Source of the DNA: Siphonodentalium dalli
Lineage: Eukaryota > Mollusca > Scaphopoda > Gadilida > Siphonodentaliidae
Assembly (NCBI GenBank): GCA_032622095.1
Contig: CP136066.1
Span: 96,741,319 to 96,805,318 of the forward strand
Length of the DNA: 64,000 nt
Direction of reading: 5' to 3'
The position numbers and the translations under genes are program-made. The notes below the pieces were generated by a model that was not told the origin of the DNA, searched no databases, and saw nothing but the letters and a program-made list of their open reading frames with translations. This document shows positions 4,218 to 62,895 of the stretch, one piece after another (position 1 is the stretch's first letter; each line of letters opens with the position of its first letter).

Positions 4218-4425
4218 TTGAACGGATGTCCTTCTCCTGTCTTTTGTACAGCAGCTAGTACATTCTTATAAACTCTGAAGCTGAACGTGACAGTGAGAGA
4301 CGCTAAGGATAGGTATGCCACAACGCTAAGTACTGAGAAGAATGCCAATGATAGCAGCATAAACAGCATGCTTCCGAAAACCACCCCTGTCTTCTTCACA
4401 TCTCGCCAGTATATGAGTTCCATCA
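4218..4425 (-). CDS. Reticulon, first RHD exon (membrane hairpin 1)
   Basis: A 208-nt exon encoding the start of the reticulon homology domain. After an excellent acceptor (TTTTTGTTCTCAG) it reads (V)[17 protein letters not shown], then about 35 hydrophobic residues (membrane hairpin 1), then [16 protein letters not shown] and EGHPF. It ends in phase 2 at AA|GTAAGT, which would complete the Lys/Arg that follows HPF in the family. These blocks (LIYWRD, KKTG.VFG, SVVAYL, SFR.YK, AVQK..EGHPF) match animal reticulons almost residue for residue, so the family call is very firm. The hydrophobic wedge inserts in the cytosolic leaflet of the ER to drive curvature. The 66-residue loop, second hairpin and C-terminal tail would be in exons left of position 1; none was seen in 1-4217. 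Which vertebrate paralogue (RTN1-4) it matches best is not meaningful, since invertebrates usually have a single gene. Confidence 0.96.
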
Positions 4426-19945: not shown

Positions 19946-20031
19946 AGTGACATTTTTAACCCTTCCATAACTGGAGCTTCCTGAAATTTTGCGAAAACCC
20001 TGTGCCAATGCATTCTCTTATATATGTGAGT

Positions 20032-21145
20032 TAGGGCCCTGCGAATTTTGATCATATCGAATCGAATATCGAATCGAATTATACATGTGTGTTGCATTCT
20101 TAATTAGGCATGTTTTGCCAAAGATTAGACGATGTTTGAAACGTTCTATGAACTTCCATGAACTTCCATCATAACTTATGTGGCGATCAACCGTCGATCG
20201 CGATACTATTAAATTCAACTGATTATTGTCGAGAAGAAAAAACAACAGATCAAAACGTCCATGCGGACCTTTACGATTAATATATAACCGGCTTATCGGA
20301 ACTAAAATCACACAAAGTTTGTACAGTTTGCATGTACATGTAAAATTGCAAATGAGCATTCGGAAACATCCGTTATTGTAAACTTGAAGATGCAACAACA
20401 GTCGCAGGGTAGCCTGTTTGTGTAGTACTGGATGCTTCTCGAACTGATGATTCCATAGATGGGTTGTTGTCCCAGATGCTTGCGATTTATACACCATGTT
20501 GTATTCATCACACGTGTAAGTTCTTGTACTGTCTGAGAAGCTTATCGTGTTTAAAATAAACATGAATAACGGACGACTTATATTGTCAAGTGTCATGTCA
20601 AAGGAACGCTCCGAAACTGACAGTCAACTTCAAAAGAAAACTCCACCAACATGCACTTTTCGATGCCTGAAACACGTGTTGTTTACATCATCAGCGATGT
20701 CACATACACATCACGCGGAACCTGAGATGGATAGTCGGCGGAAAACGCTAGCAGTTGCTCAGTTTCATAGTTATTATAATTTACATGCGTCGTCGGTCCA
20801 ACGGCGATCTCAGAGATTTTGGCAACCATGTTAAAAGCTAGAATTCAGACGTATTTAGTGGTCCTAATTTAGTGGCTAATTACTGGCCATACTTATAGTT
20901 AACAGCATGCGTACAATCGTTATGTACAATAAGAATTATAAAGCGCATATATTCATAATTTTAGGGAATTAAATGGCACAGAAATAGCTAAGATCGACGT
21001 GTGTACGTGTTCGTAAGTAGCCTATAATTTCATCCATATACATGTATATTCGAAATTTCGAGTTGGAAATTTCGACTCGAATTCGAATCGAATTTGACAT
21101 TCGAATCGAATCTCGAATCGAATATCGAATATTCACAGGACCCTA
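20032..21145 (-). mobile_element. hAT-type element, 1,114 bp, inserted in family C
   Basis: The ends TAGGGCCCTGCGAAT and (reverse-complemented) TAGGGTCCTGTGAAT are inverted repeats. Subterminal DNA is rich in ATCGAATCGAAT. The flanks ATGTGAGT (20024-20031) and ATGCGAGT (21146-21153) form an 8-bp target duplication with one difference. A minus-strand piece of transposase-like sequence lies within. The element is far shorter than an autonomous hAT (usually over 2.5 kb), so most of the transposase gene is deleted. Confidence 0.9.
20150..20560 (-). pseudogene. hAT transposase remnant with BED-finger-like segment
   Basis: On the minus strand one frame reads TRTYTC, then VYKSQASGTTTHLWNHQFEK with HP after it. 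This fits the K..GTT.LW.HL...H half of a BED zinc finger, the DNA-binding domain at the N-terminus of many hAT transposases. The second cysteine of the finger appears replaced by Tyr, and no RNase-H-like catalytic part or C-terminal dimerisation domain follows. The frame continues into low-similarity sequence (possible remnant near FIERF). It looks dead. The call rests on this short motif plus the hAT ends around it. Confidence 0.6.
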
Positions 21146-32155: not shown

Positions 32156-32280
32156 GTGGTTTTTCCTTGCTTTCTAAGTTTCAACACGTTTTGTTTTAAA
32201 TTCACAAACTTTTACAACACACAATTTTTAGTTTCTTGGCCCACCACCACCCCATTGAGCACCACCTTTTCTTCAGAGGC

Positions 32281-32508
32281 GGTCTTTTGGTCGCCCGCAA
32301 CATTATTTTTAGGTTATGTAAATATTCTATTTCAGGATTCGTTATGTATATAAATATTTTATGATTTTCTATATAAATGTCCCATCTCAAAAACGGTCTT
32401 TTGGTCGCCCGCAACATTATTTTTAGGTTATGTAAATATTCTATTTCAGGATTCGTTATGTATATAAATATTTTATGATTTTCTATATAAATGTCCCATC
32501 TCAAAAAC
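32281..32508 (+). repeat. Perfect tandem duplication of 114 bp
   Basis: 32281-32394 and 32395-32508 appear identical (GGTCTTTTGGTCGCCCGC to CATCTCAAAAAC). As 114 is a multiple of three, the minus-strand frame over it repeats a 38-residue block, but no gene is indicated. Confidence 0.93.
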
Positions 32509-36786: not shown

Positions 36787-37469
36787 TACAGCCCTCCAGT
36801 TTAAACGGACATGACTCATTTGAGCTAAGATAGGCTGACAAAAACACAAAATATTAATATACCAGCTGCTTTTGCTTTGAAAAATAATTTCCATGGTCAC
36901 AGCCATATATGGGTCAGTATGTGAGACTTGTATGACACGGTATGAGGTCACATATATTGTGTTCTCCTTCATTTATGGTGGCTTTGTATAAAGATAGCAT
37001 CAATTTCTGTTGGGGATATTGACCTTACACTATATTTTAATACAAGTATTGGTACATGTGCACCAAATACCAAATTACCTAAGTTATCATACTTAACAAG
37101 CAAATTACAAAAAGTTATATCAACCTACGCTTAACTAAGACAGTTAGGCTTCCCTTGCTAAACTATAATCCCGTAGAAAGGTAGTTCAAATATTTATCAA
37201 CCTATTTTGATACAGGCAAAATTTCAAAAGCGAATATTATTACGTGTATTTTGGAGCGCAAAGCTTTAAGCTTTAATATCATATTAAAAATATTTAATCC
37301 TGAAATTTGTTTAAATTAACAAGAAACTCAAACTGAATGTCACCAAGGAGTATAAACTTGTAACCAACACAAATCAACAAGGAATCATGCAGAATATATT
37401 TATAAGTTATACATGTATAGGCTAGTATCGTAGGTGATTGTTAGGTAACAGCTATATATAGTAACTCAC
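36787..37469. other. Plain intron next to the microexon
   Basis: No repeat or gene recognised between the hAT element and the microexon. Confidence 0.5.
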
Positions 37470-37499
37470 CCCGTGGATCTACATTCTTCATCCATGTTG
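37470..37499 (-). CDS. Reticulon 30-nt microexon (10 codons, phase 1-1)
   Basis: Predicted microexon too short for ORF finding. On the minus strand it follows a pyrimidine-rich tract ending TTTTTGTAG and is followed by GTGAGTTA, both strong splice signals. Its 30 nt keep the frame. Taking the phase-1 G from exon 1, it reads A-T-W-M-K-N-V-D-P-R, and its last G joins the TG of the RHD exon to give [10 protein letters not shown] Trp/Lys-containing linker just before the (V/I)xLIYWRD start of the RHD is also seen in short vertebrate reticulons. It divides the long intron into 24,861 and 33,044 bp. Because both neighbours are phase 1, it could be constitutive or skipped without a frame change. An in-frame ATG at its fourth codon could also start a short isoform from an internal promoter, although no promoter was identified here. 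Confidence 0.78.
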
Positions 37500-37792
37500 C
37501 TACAAAAACAAAGCAGAAAATGAAATATTACTGTACTATGATACATGTACATATATTATCATACATGTGTTTCGCCAAAAAATTCTGATTGGAGGCTTTA
37601 TAATATACCCGAAAATCATTCGAAGTTAGAGAGAACTATGTACAGAGATTTTGGTACAAATGCGGAATCAACATGTTCGGAATATAATTGGTCATATACT
37701 CACTCGTCAACATAAAATTACTTTATAAGAAATTACCGGGGTTTTTTTTCTATATATTTTTAAAAATCTTTAATGACAATACACATGTCCCT

Positions 37793-37900: not shown

Positions 37901-38080
37901 AACTAGAGGTGTGACTGTCCCAATGGGACTACGGATACCCCCCTTTTTAAAATACTAAGATGTTTCACATGTCAGTAAACATTTAGTTAAAACTAGAGGT
38001 GTGACTGTCCCAATGGGACTACGGATACCCCCCTTTTTAAAATACTAAGATGTTTCACATGTCAGTAAACATTTAGTTAA
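37901..38080 (+). repeat. 90-bp tandem duplication (left end of pearl-like block)
   Basis: 37901-37990 and 37991-38080 appear identical: AACTAGAGGTGTGACTGTCC, GGGACTACGGATACCCCCC and CAGTAAACATTTAGTTAA. Confidence 0.92.
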
Positions 38081-38800
38081 AATAATAAAATAACAGTACC
38101 CATTGCAGGTGTACAACCATAACCCTAATCTTAAACCTATTGACCGAAAATTGTAGGAATAAAAGCTTGGACAAAATTATGTATGTTGCGAAAAAATTTC
38201 TAAGTCGAAAAAGGGGAATAACTCCACACAAAAAATGCCGGACAGACGTCATAATCGCAGGTGCACAGGTTCCCATGGTACTAAATATCAGTTCCAAGAT
38301 TAAAAAACATTGACTGAAAAATGTAGGAATAAAAGCTTGGACAAAATTATGCATGTTGCAAAAAAAGTTTCTAAGTTGAAAAAGGGGGATAACTCCACCA
38401 AAAAATGTCAGACAGATGTCATAATCGCAGGTGCACAAGTTCCAATGGTACTAAATATCTGTGCCAAGTTTTAAAAAAATTGACCGAAAAATGTAGGAAT
38501 AAAAGATCGGACAAAAGTATACATGTTGCGAAAAATTTCTAAGTCGAAAAAGGGGGGATAACTCCAAAAATAAAAGTCCGACAGACGTCATAATCGCAGG
38601 TGCACAGGTTCCCATGATGGTTGATGTCTGTGCCAAGTTTCACAGAAATTGATCAAAAAACGACTGAGAAAAACTCCGGACAAATTTGTGTCCACGGACG
38701 GACGGACGACGGACGACGGACGGACGACGGACGGACGACGGACGGACGGACGGACAAGCTGACTCCAGTATACCCCCCCTAACTTCGTTCCGGGGGGTAT
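38081..38800 (+). mobile_element. Pearl/HINE-like block (family D), copy A of a 720-bp duplication
   Basis: Core monomers of about 170 bp (GTCATAATCGCAGGTGCAC at 38248, 38418 and 38587) end in a long GGAC/GGACGAC microsatellite (about 38691-38755) and a 3' hairpin with TATACCCCCC and GGGGGGTATA stems. The next copy follows at exactly 720 bp. Confidence 0.82.
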
Positions 38801-39424
38801 AATAATAAAATAACAGTTCCCATTGCAGGTGTACAACCATAATCCTAATCTTAAACCTATTGACCGAAAATTGTAGGAATAAAAGCTTGGACAAAATTAT
38901 GTATGTTGCGAAAAAATTTCTAAGTCGAAAAAGGGGAATAACTCCACAAAAAAATGTCGGACAGACGTCATAATCGCAGGTGCACAGGTTCCCATGGTAC
39001 TAAATATCAGTGCCAAGATTAAAAAACATTGACCGAAAAATGTAGGAATAAAAGCTCGGACAAAATTATGCATGTTGCAAAAAAAGTTTCTAAGTTGAAA
39101 AAGGGGGATAACTCCACCAAAAAATGTCGGACAGATGTCATAATCGCAGGTGCACAAGTTCCAATGGTACTAAATATCTGTGCCAAGTTTTTAAAAAATT
39201 GACCGAAAAATGTAGGAATAAAAGATCGGACAAAAGTATACATGTTGCGAAAAGTTTCTAAGTCGAAAAAGGGGGGATAACTCCAAAAAAAAAAGTCCGA
39301 CAGACGTCATAATCGCAGGTGCACAGGTTCCCATGATGGTTGATGTCTGTGCCAAGTTTCACGGAAATTGATCAAAAAACGACTGAGAAAAACTCCGGAC
39401 AAATTTGTGTCCACGGACGGACGG
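38801..39424 (+). mobile_element. Pearl/HINE-like block, copy B (lacks the terminal hairpin)
   Basis: Same text as 38081-38704 shifted by 720 bp with only scattered differences (for example TACCC against TTCCC at the start). It stops inside the GGAC tract, where the GTTGACAGATACG tandem at 39430 takes over, so the terminal hairpin is absent. Confidence 0.82.
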
Positions 39425-39955
39425 ACATACAGTTGACAGATACGTTAGGTCAATAATTTTGTCCATGCATAATGGGGTTAGTAAATATGTCAGTGCCCCC
39501 ATTGTGGGGTTGGCATTAGCTGAACAGTTGACAGATACGTTGTGTCAATAATTTTGTCCATGCATAATGGGGTTAGAAAAGGGTTTTGTCCATGTATACT
39601 GGGGTTATAAACATTGAGGGGTTGATAAAGTCCATGCATTGTGAAGTTAAACCATATATTCATTATGAGGTCATAAAGGGTTTTGTCCATGTATACTGGG
39701 GTTACAAACATTGAGGAGAATATGCGTTGTGTCAATAATTTTGTCCATGCATAATGGGGTTAGTAAAGGGTTTTGTCCATGTATACTGGGGTTATAAACA
39801 TTGAGGGTTGATAAGTCCATGCATTGTGAAGTTAAACCATATATTCATTATGAGGTCATAAAGGGTTGTGTCCATGTATACTGGGGTTACAAACATTGAG
39901 GAGAATATGAGGGGTTGATAAAGTTCATGCATTGTGAAGTTAAAAAAATCATATT
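39425..39955 (+). repeat. Irregular tandem array: TTGTCCATG...TGGGGTTA units
   Basis: GTTTTGTCCATGTATACTGG occurs near 39583, 39680, 39769 and (variant) 39868. AATTTTGTCCATGCATAATG occurs near 39453, 39547 and 39738. They are mixed in larger repeats of about 190 bp with AAACATTGAGG and CATATATTCATTATGAGGTC. The same vocabulary (CATGGACAAA, TGTGGGGTTA) returns at 42745-42900, suggesting both are parts of one pearl-like family. Confidence 0.75.
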
Positions 39956-62360: not shown

Positions 62361-62895
62361 CTGATTTGGGAGCTATATCAGAAACTTCTTCTTTTGGTTC
62401 TGTGGAGTCGACAGGTTCCGTTTTGATAGGTGGCTCATATTTGACAGTTGGCTCTTTTTTCACAAATGTCTCTGCTTTAACAGAGGGCTCTGGGGGAGAA
62501 AACATGGGTTCATTAGCAGTTGCCTCAGGCTCAGATGTTGAAGACACGGGTGCAGAGTCTACATCAAATGGGCCAAAGTTCGGATTAGCGCTTGTTACTG
62601 GGGGAGGAGAAAAATCGAGCAAGGCCTCGTCAACTGTTGGTTCCCCATCTAGGTTAGAATCAAATTTGGACATCAAATCATCATATGCTGAATGGGCACC
62701 ACCAACAAGATCGGAAGTCTCAGTACCAGATTTGTGTTCCGCTTCGGAGCTCTCTTCCGCAAATGAGGTTGACGTTATTTCCTTATCTTGATGCTGGCCT
62801 TCGTGTTCTTCCGGTCTTTCAACCTTTTCGAAATCGTTGAAATTATTGGTCTCCATATTCAAACTTCCTAGGAGATCCTGCGTGGAATCAGTCAT
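62361..62895 (-). CDS. Reticulon, exon 1 (start codon and acidic N-terminal region)
   Basis: First coding exon of a reticulon, a family of ER membrane proteins that curve and stabilise tubules. The ATG is at 62895. The exon encodes 178 codons plus one G and ends at a good donor (TCAG|GTAACT), intron phase 1. The frame runs past the donor for only 14 more codons before a stop. The protein is acidic, serine-, proline- and glutamate-rich, with no cysteine and no membrane segment, as expected for the variable cytosolic N-terminus of reticulons. Notable segments are an LLDFSPPP stretch (residues 92-99), FEKV at 22-25, YDDL at 71-74 and a six-residue repeat with [VI]KxE at 139, 145, 151 and 157. 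The identity rests on joining in phase to the RHD exon at 4218-4425 on the same strand. The N-terminus alone would not identify the family. The -3 base at the ATG is C, so the start context is only moderate. Confidence 0.85.

Follow-up and report, generated by a model that had tools for sequence, protein, structure and literature searches.

Does a very long intron of a scaphopod reticulon gene conceal a functional exon of only 30 nucleotides, and would such an exon be a fixed or an optional part of the protein? The window analysed here, a stretch of 64,000 nucleotides from Siphonodentalium dalli, carries on its minus strand the 5' part of a reticulon gene, four more exons of which were found downstream beyond the window (exon 4 with 70 nt); the terminal coding exon escaped detection. 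The family assignment of the initial annotation holds, as Pfam Reticulon (PF02453) matched the joined exons over positions 1-155 of 157 with E 1.8e-44. The gene thus has the C-terminal reticulon homology domain typical of the family, as well as a variable N-terminal region encoded apart from that domain, the two being separated by an intron of 57,935 nt (62360-4426, minus strand) that had been put at 58 kb before. No Pfam match at E 0.01 was obtained within the first coding exon. In the genome of 2.23 Gb and nine contigs this is the sole reticulon gene detected, so that it appears to be single-copy; one weak match elsewhere (E 5.73), tried as a second reticulon gene, contained two stops and was set aside. 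Among 500-bp windows, those at 62751 and 63001 have CpG observed/expected ratios of 1.25 and 1.24; they belong to a CpG-rich stretch spanning 62.75 kb to about 63.75 kb, as would be expected of a promoter of the long form located just upstream of the first coding exon. Searches of the whole window for RNA genes were negative, both for Rfam families at gathering scores and for tRNAs.

The candidate microexon and the features to which it relates are compiled in the table. Its coordinates, length and flanks (TTTTTGTAG on the acceptor side, GTGAGT on the donor side), its phase fit to both neighbouring exons and its translation all proved exact as initially annotated. TTTTCTGCTTTGTTTTTGTAG immediately precedes the 30 nt and GTGAGT follows them, and 29 AG-free bases lie before the final AG of the 3' splice region. 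Scored with generic weights, the donor exceeds all six other scored donors of the gene (7.4-9.0 bits), and the acceptor falls inside the range of the five other acceptors (8.9-11.7 bits). The proposal of a phase-neutral internal microexon candidate with strong splice sites is supported at the level of its signals. In the protein, the ten residues would be inserted between APKS and VMELIYWRD, some 14 residues ahead of the first hydrophobic stretch as judged by eye, and in the joined exons the PF02453 match starts at residue 189, directly after them.

Coordinates of the reticulon exons, the candidate microexon with its splice signals, and the Srrm234-like gene (window positions unless a contig or other stretch is named)
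Feature	Position	Strand	Description
First coding exon, long form	62361..62895	-	from the ATG to a codon split in phase 1; encodes the acidic N-terminal region; donor CAG/GTAACT
3' splice region CAGTAATATTTCATTTTCTGCTTTGTTTTTGTAG	37500..37533	-	UGC at -16 to -14; acceptor 11.0 bits
Candidate microexon CAACATGGATGAAGAATGTAGATCCACGGG	37470..37499	-	30 nt; phase 1-1; encodes ATWMKNVDPR
5' splice site GTGAGT	37464..37469	-	agrees with GTRAGT at every base; scores 10.5 bits as a donor
First reticulon-domain exon	4218..4425	-	VMELIYWRD... to GEGHPFK; phase 1 in, phase 2 out; Pfam Reticulon
Srrm234-like gene	L010 1501-1605, L011 1501-1536, L012 1501-1572; C4 ~110.81-110.94 Mb		cwf21 and eMIC domain, the latter over two exons 37 kb apart

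An exonised repeat appears unlikely as the origin of the candidate, for a genome search with a 231-nt query containing it matched only its own place (very common words are skipped by this search). A retrocopy of the mRNA, which could have proved the splice junction, was sought with the 593-nt spliced cDNA against its own genome, and 7/7 reported matches were the gene's own exons.

How often would a pair of splice sites of this quality arise by chance in an intron of this length? We scanned for AG/GT pairs enclosing 3-60 nt, in phase and open, with an acceptor of at least 2 bits and a donor of at least 0 bits; the position weights were generic ones rather than weights trained on this species. 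Among 266 pairs on the intron's minus strand the candidate ranks first with 21.48 bits vs 15.54 bits for the next, and the best of 249 pairs on the opposite strand has 17.28 bits. An equally strong in-phase pair appeared in 3/300 introns simulated with a first-order Markov model and in 9/600 simulated at fourth order, rising to 22/300 and 36/600 when any phase was admitted. Control DNA consisted of 20 stretches of 10 kb taken in 10-Mb steps along the same chromosome, i.e. 400,000 strand-bases, and contained no equally strong in-phase open pair; the gene flank (99,996 strand-bases) contained none either, be it in phase or of any length and phase. With length and phase left free, two equally strong pairs were present in the 400,000 control strand-bases, both in L023. 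Of 117 control pairs scoring more than 15 bits, 30 were both in phase and open; when the two pairs are scaled by this share and by the length of the intron, ~0.06 are expected, and the zero in-phase control pairs taken alone set a bound only below about 0.35 (95%). By these estimates the candidate pair is unusual, with about 0.01-0.06 expected per intron.

A rule free of weights, which demanded GTRAGT, YAG, at least 14 pyrimidines in 16 positions, 3-60 nt, correct phase and an open frame, gave a similar picture. The candidate was the sole site in the intron; the opposite strand lacked any, and so did the 499,996 control strand-bases, where two sites appeared once any phase was accepted. Relaxing the rule to 12/16 pyrimidines yielded two in-phase sites in the intron and none in the controls.

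Given these rarity estimates and the precedent of a small reticulon exon in the fly, we consider 37499-37470 to be probably a genuine internal coding microexon that is used in RNA, at a probability of about 0.7; its sequence, splice signals, phase and rarity were observed directly, while its use in RNA is inferred. In the mature mRNA the microexon would link the exon for the acidic N-terminus to the one that opens the reticulon homology domain. One competitor is a decoy, in which strong splice-like sites happen to lie together by chance and the spliceosome leaves them unused. Such pairs did turn up in the simulated introns (3/300 and 9/600) and, for any phase, twice per 400,000 control strand-bases, and the peptide itself lends no help, as ATWMKNVDPR is no closer than shuffles to the two leader peptides with which it was compared. 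The initial annotation had likened it to the Trp/Lys linker of short vertebrate reticulons, a likeness that was not supported on comparison: against the RTN4-C and RTN1-C leaders, 563/2000 and 762/2000 shuffles scored as well or better, and in a fixed register 1027/2000 and 272/2000 did so. A decoy, however, would have to combine a lead of 6 bits over the next of 266 pairs with a matching phase and an open frame, and no equally strong in-phase pair occurs in the 499,996 control strand-bases, which is why we regard it as unlikely.

If the microexon is real, it could be either retained or skipped without consequences for the frame, because both adjoining introns are of phase 1. Inclusion would add the ten residues next to the membrane part of the protein, and the downstream frame would be kept either way. 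Constant inclusion, a sub-case of a genuine exon in which there would be no switch at all, finds an argument in the splice sites, the donor being above and the acceptor on a par with the other sites of the gene. On the other hand, the UGC near the acceptor and the phase symmetry fit optional inclusion, and according to PMC10072275 the annotation of fly Rtnl1 comprises transcripts that have a small exon and others that lack it. We deem constant inclusion about as unlikely as a decoy, while optional inclusion falls slightly short of even odds overall, constant inclusion accounting for the rest of the probability given to a genuine exon.

Neural microexons of bilaterians have been linked to Srrm234 and its eMIC domain (PMC8797185), which raises the question of a potential regulator. 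The first search for SRRM_C (PF15230), run with a threshold of E 0.001 on unjoined pieces, returned nothing. At E 10, two pieces emerged on contig C4 at 110899559 and 110936977, which share a strand and follow each other directly in the profile, with E values of 0.083 and 4.97 when taken separately; joining the two exons across LDRRRITSARKRPVPYYRPSP resulted in a PF15230 match of E 1.1e-13. A cwf21 match of E 1.5e-7 lies at 110807512 on the same contig and strand, with the SRRM_C pieces downstream, and from contig, strand and order we infer that the cwf21 and eMIC pieces belong to one gene. A second, weaker cwf21 match (E 0.012) is found far away, at 22.8 Mb of the same contig.

The candidate shares only part of the profile of eMIC-dependent exons. 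It resembles these exons (PMC8797185) in size (30 nt vs a median of 31 nt in the fly), in a UGC near the 3' splice site and in the presence of an eMIC gene in the genome. The UGC is weak evidence because 41/289 strong AG sites of the control DNA also have one between -25 and -8, compared with 0/5 among the gene's other acceptors. In contrast to eMIC microexons, the candidate has a strong 3' splice site, its 11.0 bits ranking with the gene's other acceptors, and an ordinary rather than a long AG-free zone (29 nt vs 17-45 nt at the five other acceptors), and neither UCUC, which eMIC exons have in a rich tract, nor CUAAY, their strong branch-site motif, was seen by eye in the 60 nt upstream. Moreover, its flanking introns are very long, whereas weak 3' sites and short flanking introns are reported for the fly eMIC exons (PMC8797185). 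It is thus only tentatively that we suggest a role of Srrm234 and its eMIC domain in promoting inclusion in neurons, and this regulation is less certain than the exon itself.

It is very improbable that the microexon serves as a first exon whose in-frame ATG begins a short RTN-C-like form, a start at this ATG having been put forward in the initial annotation. The ATG is indeed in frame, vertebrate reticulons use several promoters, and alternative first exons exist in fly Rtnl1 (PMC3827500), but the strong 3' splice site at the start of the exon points to an internal one. The start codon is also in a poor context, with T at -3, and it competes with an out-of-frame ATG four bases earlier that has A at -3 and G at +4 and opens a frame of 41 codons terminating inside the reticulon exon. 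Next to the microexon, the windows at 37501 and 37251 have CpG ratios of just 0.69-0.83 against a median of 0.53 for the whole window, a content that neither proves nor excludes a promoter there, and of the 12 windows richest in CpG the nearest (38251-39000) lie mostly within tandem repeats. In a transcript whose leader lacks a coding start of its own, the microexon would more probably reduce than increase the output of a short form.

A more elaborate scenario, which we consider improbable, though less so than an RTN-C-like start, would have the internal microexon act as a neuron-specific, eMIC-controlled switch that is ancient among protostomes and equivalent to the 36-nt exon of fly Rtnl1, with the out-of-frame CAACATGG start lowering the short form in transcripts with a non-coding leader. 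If true, neurons would tune their tubular endoplasmic reticulum (ER) through a ten-residue insert beside the membrane hairpin.

The window and its surroundings hold several repetitive features besides. Just upstream of the microexon with respect to the minus strand, 38139-39359 is taken up by two partly CpG-rich arrays of a tandem repeat with a 170-bp unit, another tandem array is found at 39429-39909, and the array at 37901-38082 consists of two identical copies of 90 bp. Two further tandem copies of 114 bp at 32280-32508 match at 100%, a hint that they arose by duplication very recently or that the assembly produced them. On the minus strand at 20018-20623, an open frame of 201 aa had no Pfam match at E 0.1; it contains SGTTTHLWNHQFEKHP, which is reminiscent of the BED-type zinc finger of a hAT transposon. 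In a downstream intron of the reticulon gene, repeated inverted pieces around ATATAAGAGAATGCATTGGC (minus strand of L004, ~6630-6440 and 5510-5290) resemble palindromic mobile elements when inspected by eye.

The microexon alone would leave the understanding of reticulons unchanged. If it occurs in RNA, however, it would be a further example of a tiny exon easily missed by annotation pipelines, here beside a membrane-shaping domain and in a genome that encodes the eMIC domain, and it would offer a simple test of whether animals beyond vertebrates and insects tune the neuronal ER by splicing.

Among known systems, the closest counterparts come from vertebrates and the fly. The leader peptides of vertebrate RTN1-C and RTN4-C stem from separate first exons with a promoter of their own. 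Like these leaders, the candidate encodes a short peptide with Trp and Lys right before the reticulon domain, yet as a probable internal exon it differs from the vertebrate first exons. Reticulon isoforms in general vary chiefly in their N-terminal parts, as a result of splicing and promoter use (PMC5517149, PMC8125174, PMC9117662). No mollusc reticulon microexon appears in the titles and abstract openings among the matches listed from the open-licence literature. A small exon of whole codons in a reticulon gene is nonetheless already on record in Drosophila, where Rtnl1 transcript H has an extra exon of 36 bp relative to transcript F according to the legend of Fig. S2 in PMC10072275; this legend concerns expected amplicons, and the gel showed one amplicon only. 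Rtnl1 transcripts also have long introns, with a genomic amplicon of about 14 kb in the same source. The two exons differ in size, 36 vs 30 nt, and are compared here by length and host gene family. What they have in common is a reticulon gene as host, a small size and a length divisible by three.
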